This document shows positions 6,033 to 63,947 of a stretch of DNA of 64,000 bases, one piece after another. Source of the DNA: Nitrosopumilus ureiphilus (GTDB lineage Archaea > Thermoproteota > Nitrososphaeria > Nitrososphaerales > Nitrosopumilaceae). The stretch is from NCBI RefSeq assembly GCF_013407185.1, contig NZ_CP026995.1, positions 1,261,913-1,325,912 of the forward strand, in the 5' to 3' direction. The notes below the pieces were generated by a model. It was not told where the DNA came from, ran no database searches, and worked only from the letters and a program-made list of their open reading frames with translations. The position numbers and the translations under genes are program-made. Positions within the stretch are counted from its first letter, which is position 1. The number at the start of each line of letters is the position of its first letter.

Positions 6033-6135
6033 AGAGTCATATCAAAAAATAGTTTAGAAGAACAATATCAATTTCCACACTTAAAACCAAAATAAAATAC
6101 ACAACATTTTTTGGGACAGTACAACAAAATCTCTC

Positions 6136-6294
6136 ATGGTTTTACTAAATGAGAAAACATTAGAAGAGATTCTCACATATCTGGAAAAATCAATTATTAA
6201 TCTAGCAAAAGAAACATTTGAGAATTTAGAAATTGAGGGAGTAAAGGGTTTTCTGGAAAACCAGTTTGAATCAAGACTTGAGAATTTCTTGTAG
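6136..6294 (+). CDS. Small acidic helical protein
   Basis: A 52-residue frame (ATG to TAG) that is preferred over a longer reverse-strand frame across the same bases. It has the acidic, amphipathic composition typical of genuine proteins here: LNEKTLEEILTYLEKSI and then FENLEIEGVKGFLENQFE. Function unknown. About 100 bp separates it from the convergent helicase gene. Confidence 0.45.
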   Translation: MVLLNEKTLEEILTYLEKSIINLAKETFENLEIEGVKGFLENQFESRLENFL

Positions 6295-6394
6295 CAAAAG
6301 AAAGCAGTATTCACCACTTAGAATCAGGAATGAAAAATAAAATTATTCAGAGAAGGCAAAAGATTTTGGAGCAAATTTCAAATCAATATAAAAT

Positions 6395-7963
6395 CTAGAG
6401 AAAAGCATCCAATCCTGTTTTTTGAGATTCAGTTTCATGATTTTTTTCTAACACTCTGGTCATTTTGTCACCCATTGATTTTGCTGCAGTCATCTTTCTT
6501 TTTCCAATCCAGTAGTATGTCTCATCAATAGTATTTTTAGCAATTAGTACTACTAGTTTACCAGTATCTTTTCTTCCAGTTCTCCCTCTTCTTTGGATAA
6601 ACCTAATTGAACTTGGCACATTGTCATAAAAGATAACTTGGTTAACTTCGGCAATATCTAGTCCCTCCTCACCAACACGTGTTGCCACCAATACCTGAAA
6701 AACACCGTCTCTGAATTTTTGTACTGTTTCAATCTGCTTTTTTTGTTTTAAACCAGCATCCCCTGCTTTTCCAATCAAGATTCCAGCCGAGATTCCCATC
6801 TCAGTTAATTTATTGAAAATTAGATCAACTGAATCACGATAGCTGGTAAATATCAGAGCCTTGCCAGGAACAGATTCAAGAATTTCTTTCAATTTTGGAA
6901 TTTTAGAGTGCTCTATTCCACGTGATTGTGCTTCCTTTGCAAGATGGATTGCCCTTGTAAAATTAGGATCCACCTCAAAAAGTTCTTTGATTCCCACACC
7001 CTTTTTTGCCTGTGCACGTTCGCAGAATTTTAGAAATGGTGTAATTCCATGTGCTTCTAGTATGTTTAGAGCATAATGAATTCTAATTCCAGTAAAGAGA
7101 GGCTTTGCAGAGCGCCTATTCTGATTTAATACAAATTGTCTGATTCTCAGTAGCGCAGACAGAGATCGTTGTTCTGCCATACGAATTCCATTTTTTCTCA
7201 GAGCCTCATATCTTTCATCTAATGCTAATTTCAGCAAGGTTTGAATTGATTTTAATTCAGGTGGCAGTTCCACATTAATCCATTCAGTGTGAGTTTCTTG
7301 AGTGTAAGGCTTTACATCAGGACTATCTTCTCTTCTTTCAGCCACACTTGAAATTCTAAGCTTTGTCAGAATCTCTGTTGCCTTTTCTTTTTCACTAGGA
7401 AGAGTTGCAGTCATCCCAAGAATTCTTGCAGAAGAATTTTCAAAACTTTGTGCAATTCCAGAGTATGCATAATCACCAGCTGTTCTGTGAACTTCATCAA
7501 AGATGACAAGGCCGAATTGATCAGGAGTTATAATTCCCCTATTCAAGTCATTTCTAGCAATTTCAGGAGTAGCACAAATTACGCTATTATTCCAGAGTTT
7601 GGTTCGTTTCTGAATTGGGTCCTCGCCGGTAATCAGCGAAATATCATCCAAAGTAAGATTTTCTTTTAAGAATTCATAATGTTGATTTACTAAAACTCTA
7701 GTTGGAGCCAGAAACAATATTCCTCCTGTTCCTCTTGACAAATATTCTGCAATTACCTGTAATGCAATTGCAGTCTTTCCCAGTCCAGTAGGCAAAACAA
7801 CAATGCAATTTTCTTTGATTGCTTGATTTGCAAGATTTACTTGATAATCACGTCTCTCTATAGAGTTTTTTTGGACATATTTTTTCTCAAGATATTGTTC
7901 CAATCTAAAATAATCATCACAATTTATTGATTTTATGCTTTCGTGTAGCAAAATACTATCCAA
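6395..7963 (-). CDS. Hef-like SF2 helicase (helicase part only)
   Basis: A 522-residue DEAH-type SF2 helicase. Motif I is PTGLGKT (58-64), motif II is DEVH (156-159), motif III is TAT (185-187) and motif VI is QRRGRTGR near 463. The insert between the two RecA domains matches the FANCM/Hef group, which remodels stalled forks. Euryarchaeal Hef carries a C-terminal XPF nuclease; this protein ends after the helicase, as in other thaumarchaeal versions. The tail QKTGLDAFL resembles a PCNA-interacting peptide and echoes the tail of the polymerase at 9,054. Confidence 0.9.
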   Translation of the reverse strand: MDSILLHESIKSINCDDYFRLEQYLEKKYVQKNSIERRDYQVNLANQAIKENCIVVLPTGLGKTAIALQVIAEYLSRGTGGILFLAPTRVLVNQHYEFLKENLTLDDISLITGEDPIQKRTKLWNNSVICATPEIARNDLNRGIITPDQFGLVIFDEVHRTAGDYAYSGIAQSFENSSARILGMTATLPSEKEKATEILTKLRISSVAERREDSPDVKPYTQETHTEWINVELPPELKSIQTLLKLALDERYEALRKNGIRMAEQRSLSALLRIRQFVLNQNRRSAKPLFTGIRIHYALNILEAHGITPFLKFCERAQAKKGVGIKELFEVDPNFTRAIHLAKEAQSRGIEHSKIPKLKEILESVPGKALIFTSYRDSVDLIFNKLTEMGISAGILIGKAGDAGLKQKKQIETVQKFRDGVFQVLVATRVGEEGLDIAEVNQVIFYDNVPSSIRFIQRRGRTGRKDTGKLVVLIAKNTIDETYYWIGKRKMTAAKSMGDKMTRVLEKNHETESQKTGLDAFL

Positions 7964-8198
7964 TGCTCAAATATGAACAGCTGCCGGGTTTGGATAAGAC
8001 TCAACTCATCTACAAATAGTAAAATTTCAAATTGGAAGAGGAAACTGAGCCTAGATAATGCATAAAAATTCAAAATTTCACAGAAATTAGACTTTGGAGA
8101 ATTTCCTCAGGAGAGAAGAATTCAGATTTAAAAAAATACATGAGAAAATATACAAAAAACATCACAAAATAAGAAAAATAAAAATTGAAAAAACTACC

Positions 8199-8387
8199 TC
8201 ATTCTAGTTTTTTCTTTGCTTTGTTAATCATCGTAGTCTCTTCACGTAGATGTTTTTTCAACAAGCGCTCATGATCTTTTTTGTGAACGCTGTATGCTTT
8301 GTTTAGAGCCTGTTTTGTGTTTGCTCTTTTAACAGCATTTTGAAATTTTTTGTGAATGACGTTTACTTGTGCTGAATAGCTTGCCAT
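8199..8387 (-). CDS. Small basic helical protein
   Basis: I chose the internal ATG at 8387 (MASYSAQVNVIHKKFQ), giving 62 residues; a frame 20 residues longer exists but its extra N-terminus is atypical. The protein is Lys/Arg/His-rich and alpha-helical, with AVKRANTKQALNKAYSVHKK in the centre. It might be a small nucleic-acid-associated protein, but no family is recognised. Confidence 0.6.
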   Translation of the reverse strand: MASYSAQVNVIHKKFQNAVKRANTKQALNKAYSVHKKDHERLLKKHLREETTMINKAKKKLE

Positions 8388-8521
8388 TGAATCGATAGTC
8401 CATATGAGATTAAAGTAGTTTATGTATACATTATCAAAATATTTCAAATCGTTTTAAAATTGATCGCAAATAAAACTAGAATTAACGTGATCCATATATT
8501 GAGCAGGTAAACACAATCTGT

Positions 8522-9053: not shown

Positions 9054-11612
9054 ATGCAAGTAAATGTTACAAATACTGATAAAGTAGAATCAATGTCCCC
9101 ATCAATGCTAGTGTCAGCCACATATGACAATAATTCAAAATCAGCAATTTTGAAATTCTACAACCCTGAATCGCAAAAACTAATCTTATGGAAAGATGAA
9201 ACAGGACACAAACCATACTGCTATTCTAGATTATCACCAGATGAATTAGATTTTCTTCAAGAAAGAGAAGATGTTCTTGAAATCAAAACTGTTCAACGAC
9301 ATGATCTAATTACTGACAAAGAAATCGACATGTCAAAAATCACAGTGGCAGATCCGTTGGCAATTGGTGGAACAGCAGGAGACAAAAGTATCAGAAACAT
9401 AATTGAGACATGGGAATCAGATATCAAATATTATGAAAACTATCTTTATGATAGAAAGTTAATTGTTGGAAAATATTATGAAATTGTCGATAAAAATCTA
9501 AAACCACATGATTTGGAAATTTCCGACGAAGTGAAAATTGCATTGAAAAGTTTGCTTTGGGACAAAGTAGACAGTGAAAGTATGGTCGATTCTGAAGAAT
9601 TTAAAAAATACATTACAGAATGGGCAGATTTACTAAATCAGCCAATTCCAAAAATAAAAAGACTCAGCCTTGATATTGAAGTTGAAGCAGAAGTTGGAAG
9701 AATACCAGATCCAAAAATTGCGGAAAAAAAAGTGACTGCAATTGGAATGAAAGGCTCAGATGGGTTTGATCAAATTTTTGTTCTCAAGACAGAGGGAACA
9801 GAGGAAGGAAAAAATGAATTAGATCAAAATATCAAAATTACATTCTATGAATTAGACAAGGAAAAAGAGATGATATATGATGCATTTGAAATTATCAGGG
9901 AATTCCCGTTTGTGGTAACATACAATGGAGATGAATTTGACTTGCCATATCTTTACAACAGGGCAGAAAGACTTGGAATAAAAAATTCTGAAAACCCATT
10001 TTACATGATGAGGGATTCCGCAACACTAAAAGAAGGAGTTCATCTTGATTTGTATAGAACTCTTTCTAATCGTTCATTTCAAATTTATGCATTCAGCCAA
10101 AAATACACCAACTTTTCTTTAAACAGTGTATCAAAGGCCCTACTTGGTAAAGAAAAGGTAGATTATGGTTTAGAGTTTGACCAACTATCACTATACCAAA
10201 CTGCAAATTATTGTTATAATGACGCTCTACTAACATTTGAGCTTACCAGTTTCAATAATGATTTGTTGATGAAGCTCCTTGTAATCATTGCAAGAATTGG
10301 CAGAATGCCTATTGACGATATTGCAAGAATGGGAGTATCACAGTGGATTAGAAGTCTTCTATATTATGAACATAGGCGAAGAAATTGTCTAATTCCAAAA
10401 AGAGAAGAATTGCAGAGAAGATCAGAAGGAGTCCTATCAGATGCAGTGATTAAAGATAAAAAATATCGTGGGGGCTTGGTCGTTGATCCAAAAGAAGGAA
10501 TTCATTTTGATGTAGTGGTTATGGATTTTGCAAGTCTGTATCCAAGCATCATCAAAGTAAGAAATCTCTCATATGAGACAGTAAGGTGCTCTCATGAAGA
10601 ATGTAAAAAAAATATTATTGAACAGACAAATCATTGGACATGTTCTAAAAGAAACGGACTGACATCAATGATCATTGGATCATTGAGAGATTTGAGGGTG
10701 AACTATTACAAGAGTTTATCAAAAAAAGAGACTCTTACTGATGAACAAAGACAACAATACACAGTTGTCAGCCAAGCGCTTAAGGTCATACTAAATGCCA
10801 GTTATGGTGTTATGGGTGCAGAGATTTTTCCATTGTATTTTCTACCAGTAGCTGAAGCTACCACTGCAATTGGAAGACATACAATCTTGGAGACAATTAA
10901 AAAATGTGAGGCAGCAGGAATTGAAGTATTATACGGCGATACAGATTCATTATTTATCAAAAAACCAACAAAAGAACAAATTCAAACAGTAATTGAACAA
11001 GCAAAAAGAGATCATGGCGTAGATTTAGAGATTGATAAAACATACAGATACTGTGTGCTAAGTAATAGAAAGAAAAACTATCTCGGAGTAACAAAAGATG
11101 GAAATGTGGATGTTAAAGGACTTACAGGAAAGAAATCACATACGCCACCATTTATCAAAAAATTATTTTATGAATTGTTAGAGGTCTTATCAAGAGTTCA
11201 GACAGTAGAGGATTTTGTAAAAGCAAAACAACAAATTTCAGAAAAGATTGCAACATGCGGCAAAAAAGTAGAAGCAAAAGAAATACCACTAGAAGATTTA
11301 ACATTCAATGTAATGCTCAGCAAAGCACCATCTGAATACACAAAGACCATCCCTCAACACATCAGAGCTGCAAAACAATTAGAAACAATCAGAGAAATAA
11401 AAAAAGGAGATAGAATATCATATATCAAAATCCTAAACAAACCAGGTGTGAAACCTGTAGAAATGGCAAAAAAAGAAGAGATTGATTCAAAAAAATACAT
11501 GGAATTCATGGAGTCAACATTAGAACAAATTACATCGTCGATGGATTTGGATTTTGATACAATTTTAGGAAAGCCAAAACAGACAGGATTAGATGAATTT
11601 TTTTGGAGCTAG
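9054..11612 (+). CDS. polB: Replicative family B DNA polymerase
   Basis: An 852-residue archaeal PolB. Exonuclease motif I is LDIEVE (Asp207, Glu209), motif II is YNGDEFDLPYL near 292, and motif III is YCYNDALLT near 385. Polymerase motif A is MDFASLYPSI near 487, motif B is KVILNASYGVMG, and motif C is YGDTDSLF near 625. The C-terminus QTGLDEFF is a canonical PCNA-interacting box (QxxLxxFF). This is the host replicative polymerase, unlike the shorter protein-primed type PolB inside the casposon. Confidence 0.96.
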   Translation: MQVNVTNTDKVESMSPSMLVSATYDNNSKSAILKFYNPESQKLILWKDETGHKPYCYSRLSPDELDFLQEREDVLEIKTVQRHDLITDKEIDMSKITVADPLAIGGTAGDKSIRNIIETWESDIKYYENYLYDRKLIVGKYYEIVDKNLKPHDLEISDEVKIALKSLLWDKVDSESMVDSEEFKKYITEWADLLNQPIPKIKRLSLDIEVEAEVGRIPDPKIAEKKVTAIGMKGSDGFDQIFVLKTEGTEEGKNELDQNIKITFYELDKEKEMIYDAFEIIREFPFVVTYNGDEFDLPYLYNRAERLGIKNSENPFYMMRDSATLKEGVHLDLYRTLSNRSFQIYAFSQKYTNFSLNSVSKALLGKEKVDYGLEFDQLSLYQTANYCYNDALLTFELTSFNNDLLMKLLVIIARIGRMPIDDIARMGVSQWIRSLLYYEHRRRNCLIPKREELQRRSEGVLSDAVIKDKKYRGGLVVDPKEGIHFDVVVMDFASLYPSIIKVRNLSYETVRCSHEECKKNIIEQTNHWTCSKRNGLTSMIIGSLRDLRVNYYKSLSKKETLTDEQRQQYTVVSQALKVILNASYGVMGAEIFPLYFLPVAEATTAIGRHTILETIKKCEAAGIEVLYGDTDSLFIKKPTKEQIQTVIEQAKRDHGVDLEIDKTYRYCVLSNRKKNYLGVTKDGNVDVKGLTGKKSHTPPFIKKLFYELLEVLSRVQTVEDFVKAKQQISEKIATCGKKVEAKEIPLEDLTFNVMLSKAPSEYTKTIPQHIRAAKQLETIREIKKGDRISYIKILNKPGVKPVEMAKKEEIDSKKYMEFMESTLEQITSSMDLDFDTILGKPKQTGLDEFFWS

Positions 11613-54017: not shown

Positions 54018-54069
54018 TTAGTCTAGTTTAACTGATAGAAAAGTATCACTTAGTCTTCATTTTATTAAT
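54018..54069 (+). promoter_or_regulatory. Shared promoter/operator block upstream of the integrase-N chimera
   Basis: TTAGTCTTCATTTTATTAAT at 54050-54069 matches 18 of 20 bases of the sequence at the same place before the integrase gene (63913-63894, reverse strand). A further TTAGTCTAGTTTAA at 54018-54031 matches 12 of 14 bases of the 16-bp repeat there. The conserved TTAGTC elements suggest an operator or a common promoter inherited with the gene. Confidence 0.55.
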
Positions 54070-54074
54070 TAAAC

Positions 54075-54839
54075 ATGAGCGAAACAATCGTGAAAGAACA
54101 ATACAGTGAATTAGAATGGTTAGAGGATTTATTCAATTCGTCAGAATCAGAGAGAACTGTTGTAGTAGCAAAAGCACCCTTGAGATCTTTTGACCTATTT
54201 TGTCAAAGTCAAAATGTTACAAGAGAGGACATGATCAAGAGATATCAAAAATGGTTTAAACCCGAGAAAGAAAGTGAAGTAGAACAAGACATAGCAGAAA
54301 ATAAATTTTTGAGAGCTAACTTGGTAGGAAAATTAGCCAACATTTTTACGGATTTAGAAAAGAAGGAGTTAAGATATTTAGGAAAAATCAAGGCGATAAT
54401 ATCTTCTGAGGGAATTGAAGTTGAGAAAAAATACCAACAAGGATTTAGAATAAAGACATTTTGTAAGTTAATGTTTTCATGTAATCGTTTTCCTAAATGT
54501 CATGATCAATCTCAAGGATTTTTTCGTAGATGGATAATTGTAAAATGGGATAGGAATTTTGAAAACGATCCTGAAAGAATTGAATATCTTAAAGAAAAAT
54601 TAATTGAGAATAAATCAGAAATAAATCTAGTCTTTTCCAATCTTGTTACAATTGCCAATCGGTTAAACAAAGTTGGAAGATTTACTCATACCAAAGATTA
54701 TAAAGTCATTCAAAAAATGTGGAATGAAAATGCAAACCCATTAGAACAGTTTTACACCAACTGCATTATTGACAGCGAATGTAATAGAACTAAACGAGAG
54801 ACATATCAATTCTACAAAAATTATTGTTATGAGATATGA
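54075..54839 (+). CDS. Chimera: integrase N-terminus fused to half of a D5-like SF3 helicase
   Basis: A 254-residue protein. Residues 12-62 (LFNSSESERTVVVAKAPLRS, FDLFCQSQN, MIKRYQKW) align with residues 16-65 of the integrase at 62,992. Residues 75-160 switch to a D5/P4-type helicase: ENKFLRANLVGKLANIF, GKIKAIISSEGIEVEKKYQQ, KLMFSCNRFPKCHDQSQGFF and RRWIIVKW. The helicase Walker A loop is missing. The C-terminus (NPLEQFYTNCII) resembles the region after D5. A recombination remnant of an integrated virus or plasmid is the best explanation. Confidence 0.75.
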   Translation: MSETIVKEQYSELEWLEDLFNSSESERTVVVAKAPLRSFDLFCQSQNVTREDMIKRYQKWFKPEKESEVEQDIAENKFLRANLVGKLANIFTDLEKKELRYLGKIKAIISSEGIEVEKKYQQGFRIKTFCKLMFSCNRFPKCHDQSQGFFRRWIIVKWDRNFENDPERIEYLKEKLIENKSEINLVFSNLVTIANRLNKVGRFTHTKDYKVIQKMWNENANPLEQFYTNCIIDSECNRTKRETYQFYKNYCYEI

Positions 54840-54922
54840 GAAACCCCACTTGGAATGGGCCAATTCAGTTCCCTCTGTTGGGACAGACGACTTTATTAAA
54901 AGGAAAAAACTAATAGAATAAA

Positions 54923-55459
54923 TTGTCACAAACCAAACCAAAACGTCCTACTGGTCTTACTGTTTTAGGAATTCTTTACATTATAACTGCAATTACAAAT
55001 TTCGTTTCGGCTATGGAGACATTTAGAGTCTATCAGGCTACAAAATTATGGTCTGATGGAGATAGTGTTCTTGGAATGGTTTGGTTTTTTTTATTTATTA
55101 CTATGATTTTATTTTTTGTAATAGCAGGTCTAATATTTTCTGGGAAGGGAAGAAAAGCTATAATAGGTTTAGTAATTGCCACTATTGTTCTAGGGGTAAT
55201 TTCTTTGATGGCACAGAGTCCAGCCGCCATTATGTCTATTATTGTTAATATTATAATTATTATTTATTTGAGAAAACAACATGTGAAAGAATATTTTGAT
55301 GGCACATCAATTCAATCTACTTTTTCTTCCGAGTCTAATCTTCATCCACCATCAACTTCAACAGATGATGCTGAACCTTTAGACATACTTAAGAAAAGAT
55401 ATGCAGAAGGCGAAATAACCAAAGAAGAGTTTGATGACATTAAAAAAGATTTGATGTAA
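54923..55459 (+). CDS. Membrane protein with C-terminal SHOCT domain
   Basis: A 178-residue protein starting at TTG. Four hydrophobic helices span residues 10-120 (GLTVLGILYIITAITNFV; VWFFLFITMILFFVIAGLI; GLVIATIVLGVISLM; IIVNIIIIIYL). The C-terminal 30 residues (LDILKKRYAEGEITKEEFDD) are a SHOCT domain, a short helical oligomerisation motif. Role unknown; the next gene carries SHOCT-like repeats too. Confidence 0.75.
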   Translation: MSQTKPKRPTGLTVLGILYIITAITNFVSAMETFRVYQATKLWSDGDSVLGMVWFFLFITMILFFVIAGLIFSGKGRKAIIGLVIATIVLGVISLMAQSPAAIMSIIVNIIIIIYLRKQHVKEYFDGTSIQSTFSSESNLHPPSTSTDDAEPLDILKKRYAEGEITKEEFDDIKKDLM

Positions 55460-55582
55460 ATTTTTTACTCCATTTTTACTTAATTTCAATTAGTGTATAT
55501 TATCAGAGTATTGGTGAAGAATCAATTGTAATTCTAAAAAAAATTTAAAATGTATTTAAACCTAAAATACAATACAAAGAAA

Positions 55583-56830
55583 ATGTTTTGTAAACAATGC
55601 TCTGCTGAAAATATGCCTAACTCAAAATTTTGTACAACATGTGGTAGTAAACTTCATACAATTAAAGAAAAACAATCAGTAACAATTCTTAATAAAATAT
55701 CAGAAATTGATTTAAAAAAATTAAAAATTCAGTTAGCAAAAGGAGAAATCACTCCTGTAGAATTCCAAGAAAAGCTAAAATTGATAAAATCAGGAAAAAT
55801 GAACGCAGTAATTACATCAAAAAAAGAAAAACAATCAGTAACAATTCTTAATAAAATATCAGAAATTGATTTAAAAAAATTAAAAATTCAGTTAGCAAAA
55901 GGAGAAATCACTCCTGTAGAATTCCAAGAAAAGCAGCAACAGTATTCATCAAAAATTAAAAAAAACAAAGTACATTTTGAAAGTTTGTTAAAAAAAGGAA
56001 TGGAATTATTTAATCATGGTCAACACAAAGAGGCAACAAAGTATTTTGATAAAGCATTAAGCATAGAGCCTAAAAAAATCAATTTATTAATTTTGAAAGG
56101 AAAATCACTTTATTACTTAAATAAATTCAAATCATCAATATCCTATTTTGATGAAGTTTTAAAATTAGAACCAAATAACATTGAAGTTTTAGAGTATAAG
56201 GGACAAGTGTTAAGTAGAATTAAAAGATATGATGAAGCACTTTTAATTTTTGATGTAACTTTGGGCATTAATTCTAAAAATCCCTCTGTGTGGATAGAGA
56301 AGGGAGATACAATAATGAAAAAAGTATTACATCAAAAGACACCACAACATCCTAGATTAAGAACCGCCTTTCAATCAGGACAAAGTGCCAAATTCAAAGA
56401 AGCAATAACATGTTTTGATAAAGCATTAAAATTCAATTCAAATAACATAGATGCACTAAACAGAAAAGGAGATGCGTATTGCTTGTTAGAAACATTAGGA
56501 GAAAACAAAGGCTGGTCATTTAGAGATGGAATCAAATGTTATGACAAAGTACTAAAAATTGAACCAGAAAATAGAATTGCATTAAACAATAAAGGAGATG
56601 CATATCTGAATACAAAATATGGTGGATGGTATAAAACGGCAATAACATGTTTTGATAAGATTCTTAGAAAAAATCCAGATGATGTTATTGTATTATGTAA
56701 TAAGGGAAGAGCCCTTAGTCTAAAAGGAAAAATCAAAGACTCTCTACCGTATTTTGATAAAGCATTATCAATTGAACCTAATAATTTAAGAGCACTAGAA
56801 CTCAAAAAAATAGCACTTTCAAAGCATTGA
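55583..56830 (+). CDS. Zinc-ribbon, SHOCT-like repeat and TPR protein
   Basis: The ATG at 55583 (MFCKQCSAENMPNSKF) is preferred over one 11 codons upstream, because the zinc ribbon then lies at the extreme N-terminus as in the paralog at 58,376. Then come two perfect copies of a SHOCT-like segment (IDLKKLKIQLAKGEITPVEF), and at least seven TPRs (ATKYFDKALSIEPKKINLLI; SISYFDEVLKLEPNNIEVLE; AITCFDKALKFNSNNIDALN). Total 415 residues. Probably a scaffold for protein complexes. Confidence 0.8.
   Translation: MFCKQCSAENMPNSKFCTTCGSKLHTIKEKQSVTILNKISEIDLKKLKIQLAKGEITPVEFQEKLKLIKSGKMNAVITSKKEKQSVTILNKISEIDLKKLKIQLAKGEITPVEFQEKQQQYSSKIKKNKVHFESLLKKGMELFNHGQHKEATKYFDKALSIEPKKINLLILKGKSLYYLNKFKSSISYFDEVLKLEPNNIEVLEYKGQVLSRIKRYDEALLIFDVTLGINSKNPSVWIEKGDTIMKKVLHQKTPQHPRLRTAFQSGQSAKFKEAITCFDKALKFNSNNIDALNRKGDAYCLLETLGENKGWSFRDGIKCYDKVLKIEPENRIALNNKGDAYLNTKYGGWYKTAITCFDKILRKNPDDVIVLCNKGRALSLKGKIKDSLPYFDKALSIEPNNLRALELKKIALSKH
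55664..55775 (+). repeat. 112-bp direct repeat, copy 1
   Basis: Identical to 55823-55934, offset 159 bp (53 codons), inside one reading frame. It encodes the segment with ISEIDLKKLKIQLAKGEITP. Confidence 0.85.
55823..55934 (+). repeat. 112-bp direct repeat, copy 2
   Basis: Second copy of the 112-bp sequence at 55664-55775. Perfect nucleotide identity, including synonymous positions, indicates a recent tandem duplication rather than selected protein repeats. Confidence 0.85.
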
Positions 56831-56922
56831 AGAAAATTTAAGATGAATGATCATCTTTTGTATTCTAACTCATGATCTTCTTTGCGATTTGACAACCCAA
56901 CATTACACAAAGTATTGAGTAA

Positions 56923-58383
56923 TTACATTCTCGATTTATCTGGAAGATATTCAGGTGGAATTATGCCAGATGCAATATCGATTGCGTGATCTTTCATGAT
57001 TTCAATATCCTCATGAGGAAATGTGGGTAAATTTTGTAAATGTGACCAAAGACAGGAATAGCTCACAGAAATATTCTTTCCAAAATTGTCAACCAGAAAT
57101 TTCAAAATTACTAAGTGTGGTGCACTTTTGGTTCCTTTATAGGATATTTTTGCAAAGTCCCACGCAACTTGTTTGGCCCATGTTTGAACAATTGCGTCAA
57201 TTTCCCTTCGTGTGTATCCTTTGTCTGCAGCAAAATCAACAAAAATGTTTGCACTAGCTTTCTTTGGTCCTAGTTTTTTTAGTATTTCTTTTCCAAGCAA
57301 TTCTTTCGATTTGTCTACCCAAGCTTTTTGGGTATGTAGTGCTCCACCTTTCTCCATTATACAATAGCCAACATCCTCAAAAAATTTTCCAGTATTTGAT
57401 ATTACGAAATTATCCCATTTTTCTTTAAACAAATCTGCAATGGATTTTGGTGTTTCCACCATTCCTGTCCAAGGCATATGAACTGGTACTTTGTCTTTAA
57501 TGTCTTCAGTTCTGAGGAGTTTTGGCCTTCCCCATTTCGTATCCATTATTCCTATTGCAATAAGCGGAAGATACAATGAACCAAGTTGTGTCCAATTGAG
57601 ATTAGACTCAACGAAAGGATCATGAGATTCAGATGAAGTGTTTTCTGAAACTTCAACCACACTATTGCTAAATGATTGATTTGTGATATCTGTAATTCCT
57701 TCTAATGGCGGATAGTTTATTTCAATGTCGGGATTATGCCACCAATCAATTAGATTTTGTGATGCCTCTTCAAGATTTTCGGAATTTTCAGGCAATGTTC
57801 CGTGAATTTCAGGAAGATTTATTGAATCACTTTCTTGTGAAGGAATCCAATTGGGGGGTATCGGGTGATATGCTGTATTATCCGTAGTGGTGGATTCTAT
57901 TTGAGAATGCTCATAGGAATTAGTTTTGTAAGAACTATTATTTGTTGAAAGATTCTCGTTTGAAACTTGTGATTTTGGTTCAACTATGCCCCCATCTGCA
58001 TCTTCTGAGAGGTCTGCATCTTCTGAGAGGTCTGCATCTTCTGAGAGGTCTGCATCTTCTGAGAGGTCTGCATCTTCTGAGAGGTCTGCATCTTCTGAGA
58101 GGTCTGCATCTTCTGAGAGGTCTGCATCTTCTGAGAGGTCTGCATCTTCTGAGAGGTCTGCATCTTCTGAGAGGTCTGCATCTTCTGAGAGGTCTGCATC
58201 TTCTGAGAGGTCTGCATCTTCTGAGAGGTCTGCACTAGATGGGTCTTCCCCTCCAACGTAATCACTCGCAGGGCCATAGATAAAATCTCCCTGATCAGTA
58301 ATATCCCCATACACATCATCTACCGGTACATCTCCAACAGGTCCACTTGGACCAATATCTGGAACATCACCAAAATCACTCAT
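56923..58383 (-). CDS. Repeat-containing acidic protein, unknown function
   Basis: A 486-residue protein. Residues 1-50 are Asp/Gly/Pro-rich and disordered. Residues 52-130 are thirteen perfect repeats of LSEDAD (18 bp each). Residues 130-270 are Ser/Asn/Pro-rich and low complexity. Residues 275-486 form a folded alpha/beta domain (SLYLPLIAIGIMDTKWGRPK; FFEDVGYCIMEKGGALHTQK; AWVDKSKELLGKEILKKLG) that I do not recognise. No signal peptide or membrane helix. It overlaps the next gene by 8 bp, so is cotranscribed with it. Confidence 0.75.
   Translation of the reverse strand: MSDFGDVPDIGPSGPVGDVPVDDVYGDITDQGDFIYGPASDYVGGEDPSSADLSEDADLSEDADLSEDADLSEDADLSEDADLSEDADLSEDADLSEDADLSEDADLSEDADLSEDADLSEDADLSEDADGGIVEPKSQVSNENLSTNNSSYKTNSYEHSQIESTTTDNTAYHPIPPNWIPSQESDSINLPEIHGTLPENSENLEEASQNLIDWWHNPDIEINYPPLEGITDITNQSFSNSVVEVSENTSSESHDPFVESNLNWTQLGSLYLPLIAIGIMDTKWGRPKLLRTEDIKDKVPVHMPWTGMVETPKSIADLFKEKWDNFVISNTGKFFEDVGYCIMEKGGALHTQKAWVDKSKELLGKEILKKLGPKKASANIFVDFAADKGYTRREIDAIVQTWAKQVAWDFAKISYKGTKSAPHLVILKFLVDNFGKNISVSYSCLWSHLQNLPTFPHEDIEIMKDHAIDIASGIIPPEYLPDKSRM
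57995..58228 (+). repeat. Tandem array of thirteen 18-bp repeats
   Basis: TCTGCATCTTCTGAGAGG is repeated 13 times without a single mismatch, followed by a partial fourteenth. It lies inside a gene and is a multiple of three, so changes in copy number keep the frame open. Confidence 0.95.
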
Positions 58384-59194
58384 TAGTTTTCTCCATTTTT
58401 GCTAGAACATGATTTTTGTTTTCTATTACAAATGGATTATCAGGGTCATTCTCTAATGCTTGATCATAACATAATATTGCATCTTGATGTAAACCAAGAT
58501 TAGTAAGTTCATTGCCTTTACAAATAAGAGCATCTGTTCTCTTTGGATTAATTTCTAACACTTTGTTATAACAGTCTAATGCATCTTGAAAATTACTTAA
58601 TCTTGAAAGAATATTTCCTTTAATGTATAGAATATCAATATTGTCAGGTGAATAATTCAGTGCATCATCAATACAAGATAATGCCGATTTTTGACTGTCG
58701 ATTCTACTTAACGCTTTTGCTTTATTACATAAGATGAATGGATTAGTTGAATCAATTTCCAATGCTTTGTTGAACCAATCTATTGCAGTTTTATCCTCAC
58801 CAGAATTGGCAAGAGCCTTTGCTTTATTATGTAAGGCATGAACATTTTTAGAATTAATTTCCAATGCTTTATCATAACAAAGTATTGCATCTTTATAGAC
58901 TCCTACAGAAGCAAGTACATCGCCTTTATGACTAAGTGCAATTTCATCATTAGGGGAAATTTTTAATGCATTGTTAAAATAGGAAGTCGCTTCCAAATAT
59001 TTTCCAGCATATAAAAAAGAAATTCCTTTATTATTTAACCAAGAGACTTTGTTTTGTTTTTCTTCATCAAGTTGATCAGATGATGAGGAAGTATGTTTCC
59101 CAGAAGGAGGGACCAATAAAGAACCACAATGTTTACAAAACTTAGAAGGTGTAGATATTTTTGTACCACATTGGCCACAAAAAAAATTATTCAT
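58376..59194 (-). CDS. Zinc-ribbon TPR protein
   Basis: A 272-residue protein. The N-terminus FFCGQCGTKISTPSKFCKHC is a zinc ribbon. Residues 45-270 are about seven TPRs with near-consensus spacing (ATSYFNNALKISPNDEIALS; AILCYDKALEINSKNVHALH; AIDWFNKALEIDSTNPFILC). It is the clear paralog of the protein at 55,583, though without SHOCT-like segments. Likely a cytoplasmic scaffold. Confidence 0.85.
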   Translation of the reverse strand: MNNFFCGQCGTKISTPSKFCKHCGSLLVPPSGKHTSSSSDQLDEEKQNKVSWLNNKGISFLYAGKYLEATSYFNNALKISPNDEIALSHKGDVLASVGVYKDAILCYDKALEINSKNVHALHNKAKALANSGEDKTAIDWFNKALEIDSTNPFILCNKAKALSRIDSQKSALSCIDDALNYSPDNIDILYIKGNILSRLSNFQDALDCYNKVLEINPKRTDALICKGNELTNLGLHQDAILCYDQALENDPDNPFVIENKNHVLAKMEKTNE

Positions 59195-59268
59195 CCTTAA
59201 TCCTCTAAAAACACATCCTTTCTAGACATGAATTGTATCACTGTTAATAAAAAATATAAATTTAATAT

Positions 59269-60630
59269 TCAAATCTTACTCCATACCATACGAATTATAA
59301 TTACAGGGGCTATAAAGTACATCCCAATATTCAAAAGAATCAAACTAATTCCATATCCCAATACTGATTCCTCCGAATCCATATCAACATAGTTTAGAAT
59401 AGAAAGTGAACTGATCATTGGAGTTATTACAAGTTTTACTGCTTCTTTGAATAGGGGATTTTCACGTTCATAATCTGCAATCATTGGAGAAAATGAGTAG
59501 TAAAATTGATTAAATGATTCCATAAAATTTGTGCCCGATTCTGATCGCAATAATGAATTGTCTCGAAGTTCTCGTAATTGTTGTACTTGTGATGCTAGTT
59601 CTGAACCAAATGTGGCTGTTGCAATTAAACAACCACCTCCTTGATCATCATAATCTCTTACTTCATCTTCAGCAATAATTTTTATCAGAGATACTTTTGT
59701 GAATCCTAAAAAATCTCCTCCAGTAGGAATGAGAGTCACTCTTGCACCAGGTATTGGAATTGAAGAGTCACATTCCACATCACCCACAAATCTGCCATCA
59801 ACAAATTGTAGAGAATCATAATGGCCTTCTCCTTCTTCAATACAGGGACCTGTAAGATGTGCTGTATCATCATTATATACAGAACCACTATATTTTACAG
59901 GATACGACTTTAGATAATGGTCTTCCAGTTCTACACTAGAAATAATTCCATTTTCTATTGTTAATTCACCAATGATGACATACTTTTCAACTTCACCCTT
60001 CATAATCGGTGTAACAAAACTGAGATCATAGATGCCATCATACTCATTTGTTACAAGTTTTTTTAGAGTTGGGTCCACAACACACATAGGAACATTATCA
60101 ATTACTGTCAATTCTAATCCTTCATTACATCTAACATGTTCTGGGACTCTTCCTTTTTCTACTTGTATTTCAGGAGGTAAATATTGAGAATCATATCCAT
60201 AAATTACACCACAGTATTGATGAACATCATCCCCTAGCGTAAAAGTGCCAATAAACTCTATTGCATTGTAACCTGCTGGAAAATCTAATGTAAAAATTCT
60301 ACTAGAAGGAGTGGTTTGAATTGTCGAATCTGTTTCTTCTCCATTAACTAGTACTACTATCATCAAATCTAGAGATTCACAACCTTGATTTATTGAATAC
60401 ACCATTGTTCTTGGAATTTCTACCGTTATTTGACTAGCCGTATCAGATTCTACAGTCATAAAAACAGTAGGAGTAAATTCATCAATACATGACTCTAAGA
60501 CTTTTCCGTGAGTGACGGTGTAATCTAATTCAATATCTTCTGAATCTGAACATATTGTTTCAAAGGCTTCAATTCCTGTAGTTATTCCAATTAATCCCAT
60601 AACTGCAAAAAAGATTATGAATAAATTCAA
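59269..60630 (-). CDS. Secreted membrane protein with CFI-box domain
   Basis: A 453-residue protein. It has an N-terminal hydrophobic signal (LFIIFFAVMGLIGITTGI). An outer beta-rich region fills residues 25-320. Then GGGCLIATATFGSELASQV and LRELRDNSLL form a CFI-box-type domain (CFIATAAYGSxxxxxVxxLRxFRD), followed by SPMIADYERENP and one or two C-terminal membrane helices. CFI-box proteins are common on archaeal cell surfaces; function is not established. Confidence 0.8.
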   Translation of the reverse strand: MNLFIIFFAVMGLIGITTGIEAFETICSDSEDIELDYTVTHGKVLESCIDEFTPTVFMTVESDTASQITVEIPRTMVYSINQGCESLDLMIVVLVNGEETDSTIQTTPSSRIFTLDFPAGYNAIEFIGTFTLGDDVHQYCGVIYGYDSQYLPPEIQVEKGRVPEHVRCNEGLELTVIDNVPMCVVDPTLKKLVTNEYDGIYDLSFVTPIMKGEVEKYVIIGELTIENGIISSVELEDHYLKSYPVKYSGSVYNDDTAHLTGPCIEEGEGHYDSLQFVDGRFVGDVECDSSIPIPGARVTLIPTGGDFLGFTKVSLIKIIAEDEVRDYDDQGGGCLIATATFGSELASQVQQLRELRDNSLLRSESGTNFMESFNQFYYSFSPMIADYERENPLFKEAVKLVITPMISSLSILNYVDMDSEESVLGYGISLILLNIGMYFIAPVIIIRMVWSKI

Positions 60631-61001
60631 TTTGTATAATTTAACATCATCTTCTTTTAATCACGATAACTACAATAATAACAATTATTACTATAAATGC
60701 AAAACCAATACTGAATTAATACAGTGTAAATCAATTTACTGAATACCGCTTACGGAGCACATACGGTTGGTTCCAATATCTTTCATGCCCAACCCTAGTT
60801 AGAGTGTCAATGTGATCTGACAAATCATTCTCCGAGATTTGAAATCCGTGAAACAAAAATTTCAAATTCGATAGAAATCATTTATACCGTATGTTGAAGA
60901 GACGATTTAGGCACAAATCCTGACACTTCTAGTTTTGAACTTTCTTCTATTGACAATCTCAAATCTAAAAGAGTAAAGTTTTGATCATAATGTGTCAGGA
61001 A
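60631..61001. other. Intergenic stretch without a convincing gene
   Basis: About 370 bp upstream of the CFI-box gene. The first part contains a hydrophobic frame without a good start (IGFAFIVIIVIIVVIVI, reverse strand near 60,660-60,720). The rest is AT-rich with no feature I can support. Confidence 0.5.
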
Positions 61002-61109
61002 CTACAGCAGATTATCCCCGACATAATATGAAACAATACCAACATACCCAATGAGAATCCAAGCCCATAGAGGTATTTCTTCCAAGACGTCTTTTATTGT
61101 ATCAATCAT
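61002..61109 (-). CDS. Single-span membrane micropeptide
   Basis: A 35-residue frame, ATG to TAG: an amphipathic lead (MIDTIKDVLEEIPLWAW) and one helix (ILIGYVGIVSYYVG). Composition is that of many small thaumarchaeal membrane peptides. Function unknown. Confidence 0.45.
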   Translation of the reverse strand: MIDTIKDVLEEIPLWAWILIGYVGIVSYYVGDNLL

Positions 61110-61399
61110 AACTTACAATGATCTTTTCACTAGAATATAAAATTGCATTTACCATCCTAAATAACAAAAAGTACACAACTAAGTAACGTTCAATTCTATT
61201 TTTTAAAATATTGTAATAGATAATTAGCAAATACTAATTTCTATTATTCAGTCATGAAAACAATCAATGAGAAACTAATGAAATAATATTTTCAGTCATA
61301 AAATCTTCTCTTTATTATTTTAAATCAAGTGCATTTTGTATGATAATTGAATTTGTAGTAGTAAGAGAAACCTGTCACAAATGGGAGGGTTTAAAGTAA

Positions 61400-61801
61400 T
61401 TGCCTAAGAGTGGGCACTTACCGGATATCTCAAAAAACTTTGGGTTTTTTAAGAATTTTGCAGTTAACTCTTTGAATCGCAAAGATTATTCAGGAGCTCG
61501 GTCAGCATTGTATTCTCTTAATGGTTGTCTAGGAGATGAATATCTGGTAACAATCAGTTCAAATAAATATAAACAATCTTTGAAAGACCAATCAACATAT
61601 CAATGCAATCATTGTAGGATGTCAGTTTCGAAGACTTTCAATGAGGGTGAAGAAAACACATACACAAAAGAAATTCAGGTTCCAACAGAAATTCTAATAT
61701 CAAAAGTTCATATTTTTGAGATAAATTTACCATTAGTATTAGCAATATTTTCAGAAAGTAAAACAACAAAAAATACTCAGAGATATTATTTTCAAACCTA
61801 A
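61400..61801 (+). CDS. Hypothetical protein, possibly the 3' part of an interrupted gene
   Basis: A 133-residue frame starting at TTG, immediately after an in-frame TAA at 61397. An ATG-started 19-codon frame (61340-61396, ending ETCHKWEGLK) runs into that stop in the same reading frame. Joined, it would be a protein of about 153 residues. It has a zinc-like CNHCRMSVSK near residue 70, and a C-terminal beta region. Either the first part is a leader, or a stop mutation has broken the gene. Confidence 0.45.
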   Translation: MPKSGHLPDISKNFGFFKNFAVNSLNRKDYSGARSALYSLNGCLGDEYLVTISSNKYKQSLKDQSTYQCNHCRMSVSKTFNEGEENTYTKEIQVPTEILISKVHIFEINLPLVLAIFSESKTTKNTQRYYFQT

Positions 61802-61851
61802 GAACATAGGCATTACACATGAATCTAGAATACTTAGTATTTTCTTACAAG

Positions 61852-61867
61852 TTAGTCCAGTCTAATT
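61852..61867 (+). repeat. 16-bp direct repeat, left copy
   Basis: TTAGTCCAGTCTAATT, identical to 63932-63947. The two copies lie 2,080 bp apart in the same orientation and bracket the HNH, zinc-finger and integrase genes. They may be attachment or regulator sites. Confidence 0.7.
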
Positions 61868-61951
61868 GTGAATTAAATCTAAGTTAGTTCATAACATTTA
61901 CGCCTAGAAGGACGTTTTGAGGAATTTGAATTATTTTTAGGTACAAACGGT

Positions 61952-62671
61952 TCAAGGATTGGAATTTCTTTCTCGTTCTGTCTTATGCGTATGGCAATTC
62001 TTACAAAGTGCTTGACAGTTACTAGGATCAGTATTCCAAGAACGGCCATCTATGTGATCATAGTCAAAGTAAACTAATCTGCCATTAACTAGACCTATTC
62101 TCCTACCACAATCATTACACCTATTATCTTGTTTTCTCAAAGTTTGTGATTCAATTTCTCTACCAAATGAACGTCTAGATTGTTTTTCTGTATATTCTGG
62201 TTCTGATTTTGATTGAGAAGTTTTTGCAATTACTGCAATAATTATGATGAAAATGATTACACCTATCACAACATATCCAATTTGTTCATCTTGAAGAACA
62301 ACATCACCTGTTTGTGAATCATATCTCATTCCTGTATTGGGATCAACAATTTGGTTACTTTGAGTATCTCTGCATGCAGGATTTCCTTGATTATCTAATC
62401 CATAATATGTTCCAGACGGACATTTCAAATCAGGATTCTGTGCTAATTGTTGTCGTCTCATTTCATCTTCTGATGTAAATTTATTTTGAGTAATTTCGGC
62501 TACTCGTTCACCATATCCCTCAGGTATAAAATCTGCACATCTAACCGGATCATGTTGCCAATTATCCTGACAGTATTCACTCATTATATCCCTAGAACCT
62601 GTCTGTGAAAAACTAGGAATGATTGTAATAGATAAAAGGAGAATAATTGACAGAATGGCAATAGATTTCAT
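61952..62671 (-). CDS. Membrane-anchored HNH endonuclease-like protein
   Basis: A 239-residue protein. A signal peptide (ILLLSITIIPSFSQ) leads into an outer domain of about 105 residues with four Cys. A transmembrane helix lies near 132-150 (YVVIGVIIFIIIIAVIA). The C-terminus is an HNH domain: CNDCGRRIGL, YFDYDHIDGRSWNTDPSNCQ, LCKNCHTHK, with zinc Cys pairs and the D-H...N...H core. The nuclease would face the cytoplasm. This is an unusual architecture; DNA uptake or entry defence is a guess. Confidence 0.75.
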   Translation of the reverse strand: MKSIAILSIILLLSITIIPSFSQTGSRDIMSEYCQDNWQHDPVRCADFIPEGYGERVAEITQNKFTSEDEMRRQQLAQNPDLKCPSGTYYGLDNQGNPACRDTQSNQIVDPNTGMRYDSQTGDVVLQDEQIGYVVIGVIIFIIIIAVIAKTSQSKSEPEYTEKQSRRSFGREIESQTLRKQDNRCNDCGRRIGLVNGRLVYFDYDHIDGRSWNTDPSNCQALCKNCHTHKTERERNSNP

Positions 62672-62714
62672 AAAACGATTTAACAGATTATGAACTTAAG
62701 CATTTTGAGATTAT

Positions 62715-62900
62715 TTAGTTGTAAAATTCACCGTTTCTATACAATTTACCCTTAAATTCCTCTTTAATTTTTTCAATTCCACCATCAAAAAGAGATTCAT
62801 CAAGGCCTATTGGTAGATGTATTCCATGTTTTTCTGCAAGGTGTTTAATCATCCATTTTTCAGTTTTTGTTTTATATCCACAACGTTTACACATATTCAT
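62715..62900 (-). CDS. Single C2H2 zinc-finger protein
   Basis: A 61-residue protein. The finger is CKRCGYKTKTEKWMIKHLAE followed by KH, the C2H2 pattern found in archaeal viruses and plasmids. A 35-residue tail follows. Its ATG overlaps the stop of the upstream finger gene by 4 bp (ATGA). Likely a DNA-binding regulator of the integrase operon. Confidence 0.7.
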   Translation of the reverse strand: MNMCKRCGYKTKTEKWMIKHLAEKHGIHLPIGLDESLFDGGIEKIKEEFKGKLYRNGEFYN

Positions 62901-62995
62901 TCTAAAACACCATGTCTTTTTTGAAGATGTTCACGTAATACTTCTACATGTAAAGAAGCCCTTGCACAATACGGACATTTGTAATATTTTATCAA
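62897..62995 (-). CDS. Tiny C2H2 zinc-finger protein
   Basis: A 32-residue frame starting at TTG, where the TTGA overlaps the integrase stop. The sequence KCPYCARASLHVEVLREHLQ followed by KRH is a complete C2H2 finger. It is coupled by 4-bp overlaps to genes on both sides, so integrase and the two fingers form one operon. Confidence 0.65.
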   Translation of the reverse strand: MIKYYKCPYCARASLHVEVLREHLQKRHGVLE

Positions 62996-63888
62996 TTTGA
63001 CACCTCGTTAAAGTCTGGTTGTTTACAAGGTAATAGAATTGTTCTTTGTTCTTTTAATCCGTATTTTACTGCAAGTTCTTCAAGATTGATATGTTTTGCA
63101 TCAAAGTATTGTTCAATGTATCTTTCAGTTAAACCAAGTCTAACTCTTAGATCACCAAATACTTGATCTTCATTGATCACAGCCTGAATGTTATCTTTGT
63201 ATTCAGTAAACACGAACTCATCATCGCCTTTTGATTCTAAGATAGGCTGTACTTTCTCAAAAGCTTCTGATGTGATGAAGGTTTCACGGCTTTCTTTAGT
63301 CTTTGTGTTTTCAGCATCTATTGTGATTCTTACCGGATTTTCGTTTGTATGAAAGTTCTTTTTTGTTAGAGATAACGCTTCACCTAATCGCATACCGGAT
63401 GATATGAGGGTATAGTATAATGCACGTCTTTGCGGACTAGCATTATTACAAATTAGTTTTAAGACTTTGATGGGTATGGCTTTACGTGGTACTTTTCTCG
63501 GTTTTGGGAATTGAATGTAATCTTTTACATCATCTATTGATACCTTGACACCGTGACAGATTCTGAGATATGACTTTACAAAACCAAAGTAAGTTTTAAT
63601 GGTTTTAGGGCTTTTTCTTTTTGATATTCCTTCATGGTCTTGATCAAGAAAATTCACAAACTTATCCAAAGATAGACAGATACTTCGAATATCAGATTCT
63701 TTAGATAATTTTTGGTACATCTCTATCATCTCGTTAATTGTTGTTCCTTGATGTTTGCAAAAAATATCAAAGATTTTTAGAGATACTCGGGCTGAATGTT
63801 CTGTTCTTTTTGATTCTGATTTTCTAAACATTCGACTGAAATAATCTTCATCTGTAAATAGTTCTAAACTCATACCTAATTTATCCAT
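62992..63888 (-). CDS. Tyrosine recombinase (integrase), likely C-terminally incomplete
   Basis: A 298-residue protein. Residues 10-125 are the core-binding SAM-like domain (SLDKFVNFLDQDHEGISKRK; TIKTYFGFVKSYLRI). Catalytic Arg I is in LISSGMRLGEAL near 168, and a beta-hairpin Lys is in NTKTKES. The expected HxxR box and catalytic Tyr are not visible; after FGDLRVRLGLTERY the sequence departs to an unrelated tail. It is shorter than usual archaeal integrases. It may be inactive or act with a partner. Confidence 0.75.
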   Translation of the reverse strand: MDKLGMSLELFTDEDYFSRMFRKSESKRTEHSARVSLKIFDIFCKHQGTTINEMIEMYQKLSKESDIRSICLSLDKFVNFLDQDHEGISKRKSPKTIKTYFGFVKSYLRICHGVKVSIDDVKDYIQFPKPRKVPRKAIPIKVLKLICNNASPQRRALYYTLISSGMRLGEALSLTKKNFHTNENPVRITIDAENTKTKESRETFITSEAFEKVQPILESKGDDEFVFTEYKDNIQAVINEDQVFGDLRVRLGLTERYIEQYFDAKHINLEELAVKYGLKEQRTILLPCKQPDFNEVSN

Positions 63889-63893
63889 TGTAT

Positions 63894-63947
63894 ATTAATA
63901 AAACGAGGACTAATTTAGAATGAAAGTAAACTTAGTCCAGTCTAATT
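63894..63947 (-). promoter_or_regulatory. Integrase promoter/operator block
   Basis: Contains GGACTAA at 63907-63913 and its inverted partner TTAGTCC at 63932-63938 with an 18-bp spacer, a likely repressor or integrase site. The proximal part matches 18 of 20 bases upstream of the chimera at 54,075. The 16-bp repeat TTAGTCCAGTCTAATT (63932-63947) also occurs at 61852. Confidence 0.55.
63932..63947 (+). repeat. 16-bp direct repeat, right copy
   Basis: Second copy of TTAGTCCAGTCTAATT, located 44 bp upstream of the integrase start codon. Confidence 0.7.

Follow-up and report, generated by a model that had tools for sequence, protein, structure and literature searches.

The window, by which we mean the whole 64-kb stretch of the Nitrosopumilus ureiphilus genome analyzed here, carries an insertion at 54,018-63,945 that lies directly 3' of cysS and is flanked by a 14-bp att repeat. 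The left att copy (54018..54031), at which the match to an empty site in the family genome G030 ends, is the 14-bp core with two changes, and the right copy (63932..63947) is an exact 16-mer, TTAGTCCAGTCTAATT, whose first 14 bp open the conserved right flank. The only other exact copy of this 16-mer in the genome is found at 61852..61867, inside the insertion. Compared with the empty site of G030, the window matches on the cysS side as far as 54031 and again on the right side from 63932 onward. The G030 segments behind these two matches share precisely the 14-bp core, so that 54018-63931 (9,914 bp) is the insertion. G189 has an uninterrupted site that contains the core with one change. More broadly, the right flank (the window from about 63,928-63,941) matches DNA downstream of cysS in 14 of 17 relatives, either directly or a few genes later, with no such match in the ca. 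1.5 kb available downstream of cysS in G202, G231, and G222. We also considered a tRNA gene as integration target and found none in the 64-kb window.

The internal att copy and the element genes that sit on either side of it suggest that the insertion consists of two tandem elements, A (54018-61851, with the left att copy as its attL) and B (61852-63931), with the copy at 61852..61867 as their proposed boundary. The start codons of two integrase-derived frames, a chimeric ORF on the left and ORF 62992-63888 on the right, face inwards and are both located exactly 43 nt inside an att copy. Their 43-nt leaders are identical at 24 of 43 positions, including 20 of the last 27; given that at least 24 matches are reached at 36 of 128,007 positions (the leader's own place counted in), this similarity would be modest on its own, and it is the position of the leader that makes it telling. 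Apparently, the att site 3' of cysS has been used twice in tandem.

The int-distal end of element A holds a remnant, the front part of a gene that we label "LPDI" (61400..61801, on the + strand like the chimera; 36% to the corresponding genes of G074 and G109), and the int-distal end of element B holds a gene with an HNH endonuclease domain (61952..62671, - strand). Further cargo of the insertion is a 486-aa ORF (56923-58383, - strand), in which an 18-bp-spaced tandem repeat (D-L-S-E-D-A) forms a family of fourteen copies at 57941-58288. Inside a TPR-like ORF (55550-56830), a 117-nt stretch is duplicated with 98% identity (55659-55934), and the C-terminal part of an ORF at 59269-60630 (- strand) resembles, as judged by eye, an ORF neighboring an SF3 helicase in a Nitrosopumilus MAG (L121 199-480).

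Composition of the two fusion frames

The ORF at 54075..54839 (+ strand, ATG start), listed as an open frame of 254 residues in a preliminary description of this locus, is present as such and is confirmed as a genuine in-frame chimera of an integrase start and the back half of an SF3 (D5/primpol-type) helicase. Its integrase-derived part (54075..54290; residues 1 to ca. 72) corresponds to the first portion of the region that precedes the catalytic domain. The homology of its first 60 residues to the integrase at 62,992 claimed in that description was recovered at residues 8-69, with 37% identity in a single pairwise comparison (E 4e-10). Searching the whole genome with the chimera as query returned the place of ORF 62992 at E 3.6e-7, and a six-row profile of integrase N-termini, with the chimera itself among the rows, matches it at E 6.3e-35. 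Tyrosine recombinases are characterized by the catalytic residue pattern R...H-x-x-R...Y, and the chimera has no Pfam match to the Phage_integrase catalytic domain (PF00589).

In the junction zone (54285..54293), the residues D-I are common to integrase and helicase relatives. Helicase-derived DNA spans 54285..54868, the end of the similarity to G030, and thus continues beyond the stop codon at 54837-54839. Residues 71-253 align with full-length SF3 helicases (70% identity for G030, 68% for G080) and residues 71-248 with a protein of a Nitrosopumilus MAG (74%), while two IMG/VR contigs, L148 and L153, show 69% and 68% identity to the chimera, the latter together with a terminase large subunit. 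As previously described, the frame runs into the second half of a D5-like helicase without Walker A: the alignment shows a P-loop of the G-x-G-x-x-G-K-S type, which we take to be this motif, in the relatives and not in the chimera, whose homology starts downstream of it. Pfam DUF5906 matches the chimera (1.5e-15) only over profile positions 30-114 of 114, compared with positions 2-114 plus D5_N for the intact G030 protein, and PHROG primases match it down to E 1.8e-26. Invariant helicase columns such as D93/E95, N137, and R151/R152, presumably the downstream helicase motifs, are retained. The stop codon falls opposite residue ca. 458 of the G030 protein and leaves the helicase C-terminal domain incomplete; the ten residues past it, read from the DNA, are identical to those of G134. 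Among predicted structures, the chimera reaches a mean pLDDT of 40.5, compared with 41.7 for the intact helicase of G030, whose alignment was just as shallow; the only confident stretch of the G030 model comprises about residues 425-500, and the chimera's stop lies inside it.

The ORF at 62992..63888 (- strand) is a second fusion, here of integrase residues 1 to ca. 257 to the C-terminal tail of an element ATPase (junction at about 63118-63126). Its earlier designation as an integrase holds for the first part only, because the frame is itself a fusion without the catalytic C-terminal part: the match to intact integrases stops at residue ca. 257, and PF00589 is covered only at profile positions 20-101 of 172. 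Residues 250-295 match the ATPase C-terminus (87% for G074, 81% for G215, and 49% for G109). At the junction, the two G074 parents have a short run around the E-(K/R)-Y codons in common, and the window follows the integrase before this run and the ATPase after it. The insertion therefore contains no intact integrase, since each integrase start is truncated and joined to a part of another gene.

Intact elements with the parental genes are found in G109 and G074. On one strand of G109 (L030), int (6055-7257) is followed in order by the helicase (9655-10743), the LPDI gene, the ATPase, and a small HNH gene; G074 (L103) has, also on one strand, int, a 643-aa gene, the LPDI gene, the ATPase, and the HNH gene. 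The LPDI gene has no Pfam match. The 643-aa gene (6573-8504), which matched neither Pfam nor PHROG under the thresholds applied, is placed where G109 has its SF3 helicase and perhaps encodes an alternative replication protein. For the elements of G074 and G109, an exact-word search of the stretches tried recovered no att repeats, which leaves their ends undefined. The recombination between two mobile-element genes proposed in the preliminary description is supported, and with integrase and helicase co-oriented in a single G109 element, one internal deletion would suffice to form the chimera; by the parental gene order of G109 and G074, each of the two fusions would be the product of one such event.

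The junction was seen in the source genome only. Among 200 family genomes, no further one has the chimera's architecture, and with the chimera as query, one scan of viral contigs gave no matches and one scan of genome contigs gave a single relative that matches the helicase part only. From these searches, we reject a conserved fusion family, for which the same architecture across many genomes had been named as the hallmark. As to the full-length parents that were to be sought in viruses and plasmids, a search of viral contigs with the helicase alignment found 52 loci (the top one 69% identical to the chimera), and of 15 matching plasmid records, none reaches 80% coverage of the query. Among phages, 149 records match, and the one that covers at least 80% of the query is a Mycoplasmopsis phage primase (24%). 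The integrase and ATPases of G109 and G074 have no match at 1e-5 among the 52 viral helicase loci, and the LPDI gene is matched in one of them (L150).

Origin of the fusions

We consider it highly probable that ORF 54075-54839 was left by a deletion within a tyrosine-recombinase element that had entered between cysS and the gene that follows; the chimera is most likely debris of an integrated element rather than a new protein, and largely ordinary. At the base of this reading are the att repeats, the empty sites, the parental gene order, the att-proximal integrase start, the helicase homology starting mid-domain, and the in-frame stop. After integration at this att site, the element may have lost a few kb by internal deletion at a short stretch of shared sequence: the rest of int, everything in between, and the front of the helicase including Walker A. 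With a one-in-three chance of preserving the frame, the helicase frame would have stayed open, and a stop codon would afterwards have truncated its C-terminus. The same kind of deletion in a second element that used this att could have produced the int::ATPase-tail ORF. Neither fusion product should be able to recombine or unwind DNA, and the chimera, if made, is probably inert.

Several lines of evidence argue for a deletion remnant. These are the 14-bp att core together with the empty sites in G030 and G189, the confinement of the exact 16-mer to 61852 and 63932, the location of both integrase starts 43 nt inside an att behind similar leaders, and the stop codon followed by ten homologous residues. 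The second fusion of like kind in the same insertion points in the same direction, as does an integrase-to-HNH joint in G158:C10, where a frameshifted integrase continues into the HNH gene without being in frame with it. Finally, the genus commonly has short integrase stubs. Across 95 genus genomes, the integrase N-terminus was matched 26 times, with 6 matches in frames of at least 350 aa, 4 in frames of 250-350 aa (two of them the window's own), and 16 in frames of less than 250 aa. We re-read the loci of 22 of these 26 matches (all but the window's two, G109, and G074), and the integrase frames terminate at stops and not at locus ends. Mid-integrase fragments also occur (e.g., G178:C9 and G233:C44), so that the debris is not limited to N-terminal stubs. 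Separately, we note a 520-aa integrase frame in L133 (G195:C28) with a C-terminal extension of ca. 140 residues past the integrase homology.

Some observations count against debris. The helicase half is without decay, as none of the 36 positions invariant among seven relatives is changed and, within the close clade, its rate (12/95) resembles that of intact genes (8/91, 9/92, 4/87, and 16/99); a recent deletion explains this, and selection would also be compatible with it. The synonymous rate is saturated, so dN/dS gives no date for the fusion. Both fusions of the window are in frame, for which the chance is 1 in 9, and integrases of G217 (L131) and G161 (L136) have in-frame internal deletions by which the C-terminal part directly follows the N-terminus, though small numbers weaken this point.

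It is quite unlikely that the chimera is a retained dominant-negative or regulatory protein that is driven from the integrase's own leader and interferes with the integrase or the helicase hexamer of related incoming elements. The intact leader and start codon position, the open frame, the conserved helicase residues, and the presence of two in-frame fusions side by side would fit such a role, and in SSV integrases the N-terminal parts function in multimerization and DNA binding according to the portion of PMC8371274 considered here. However, both domains are severed mid-fold, the stop truncates the C-terminus, no second genome among those searched has the junction, and integrase stubs abound in the genus. 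The retained use as a dominant-negative inhibitor raised in the preliminary description is thus possible but unsupported. Even less do we expect that the two inward-facing fusions persist as small proteins whose use is to occupy the att site or to poison an integrase or helicase brought in by related elements; if true, in-frame deletion debris would serve as element-against-element immunity.

An assembly artefact joining two loci, which would account for a junction in one genome only, is scarcely credible and was rejected because the genome is one contig (2.17 Mb, 99.8% complete), residues are shared at the joint, and the flanks are in conserved order. We give practically no credence to an SSV-type suicidal integrase, whose N-terminal part would be left because integration splits the gene: an integrase N-terminal fragment does adjoin the att site, but this idea is contradicted by the att core, which precedes each of the start codons by 43 bp and lies outside the gene. 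Intact relatives (400 and 376 aa) within integrated elements are not split, and the joined part is helicase and not att-flanking host DNA.

Relation to known elements

If the fusions are deletion remnants, they exemplify one decay route in the genus, in which deletions extend from the integrase start near the att into element genes further downstream and produce open chimeras that mislead. Homology-based annotation would tend to label ORF 62,992 as an integrase and ORF 54,075 as a primase, and neither label denotes a working enzyme. In addition, the locus places an att site 3' of cysS; our search found no literature linking Nitrosopumilus, integrase, and cysteinyl-tRNA synthetase.

As far as the parts of Krupovic et al. 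(2019; PMC6563490) used here describe them, thaumarchaeal cryptic integrated elements (CIE) have short att repeats with a median of 17 bp, and the elements at this locus fit this group: they share the tyrosine recombinase, the short att repeats, the intergenic target, and the primpol/SF3-type replication genes found in some CIE. The same parts report tandem re-use of one site for tyrosine-recombinase elements in general. The present copy differs in being a decayed tandem pair in which both integrase genes are fused to downstream element genes. The SSV-type (class I) integrases with their int(N)/int(C), as outlined in the relevant portion of PMC8371274, resemble our case in the integrase N-terminal fragment at the element end but differ in that the att here lies outside the gene and the fragment would stem from a deletion; the att position thus makes the elements at this locus distinct from them. 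The closest likeness of the helicase half is to SF3 helicases from thaumarchaeal elements and from contigs resembling tailed viruses (G030, G080, L148, and L153; 68-71% over ca. 183 residues); those with a full ORF are 509-761 aa long and have the P-loop and the complete C-terminus, whereas the chimera has neither.
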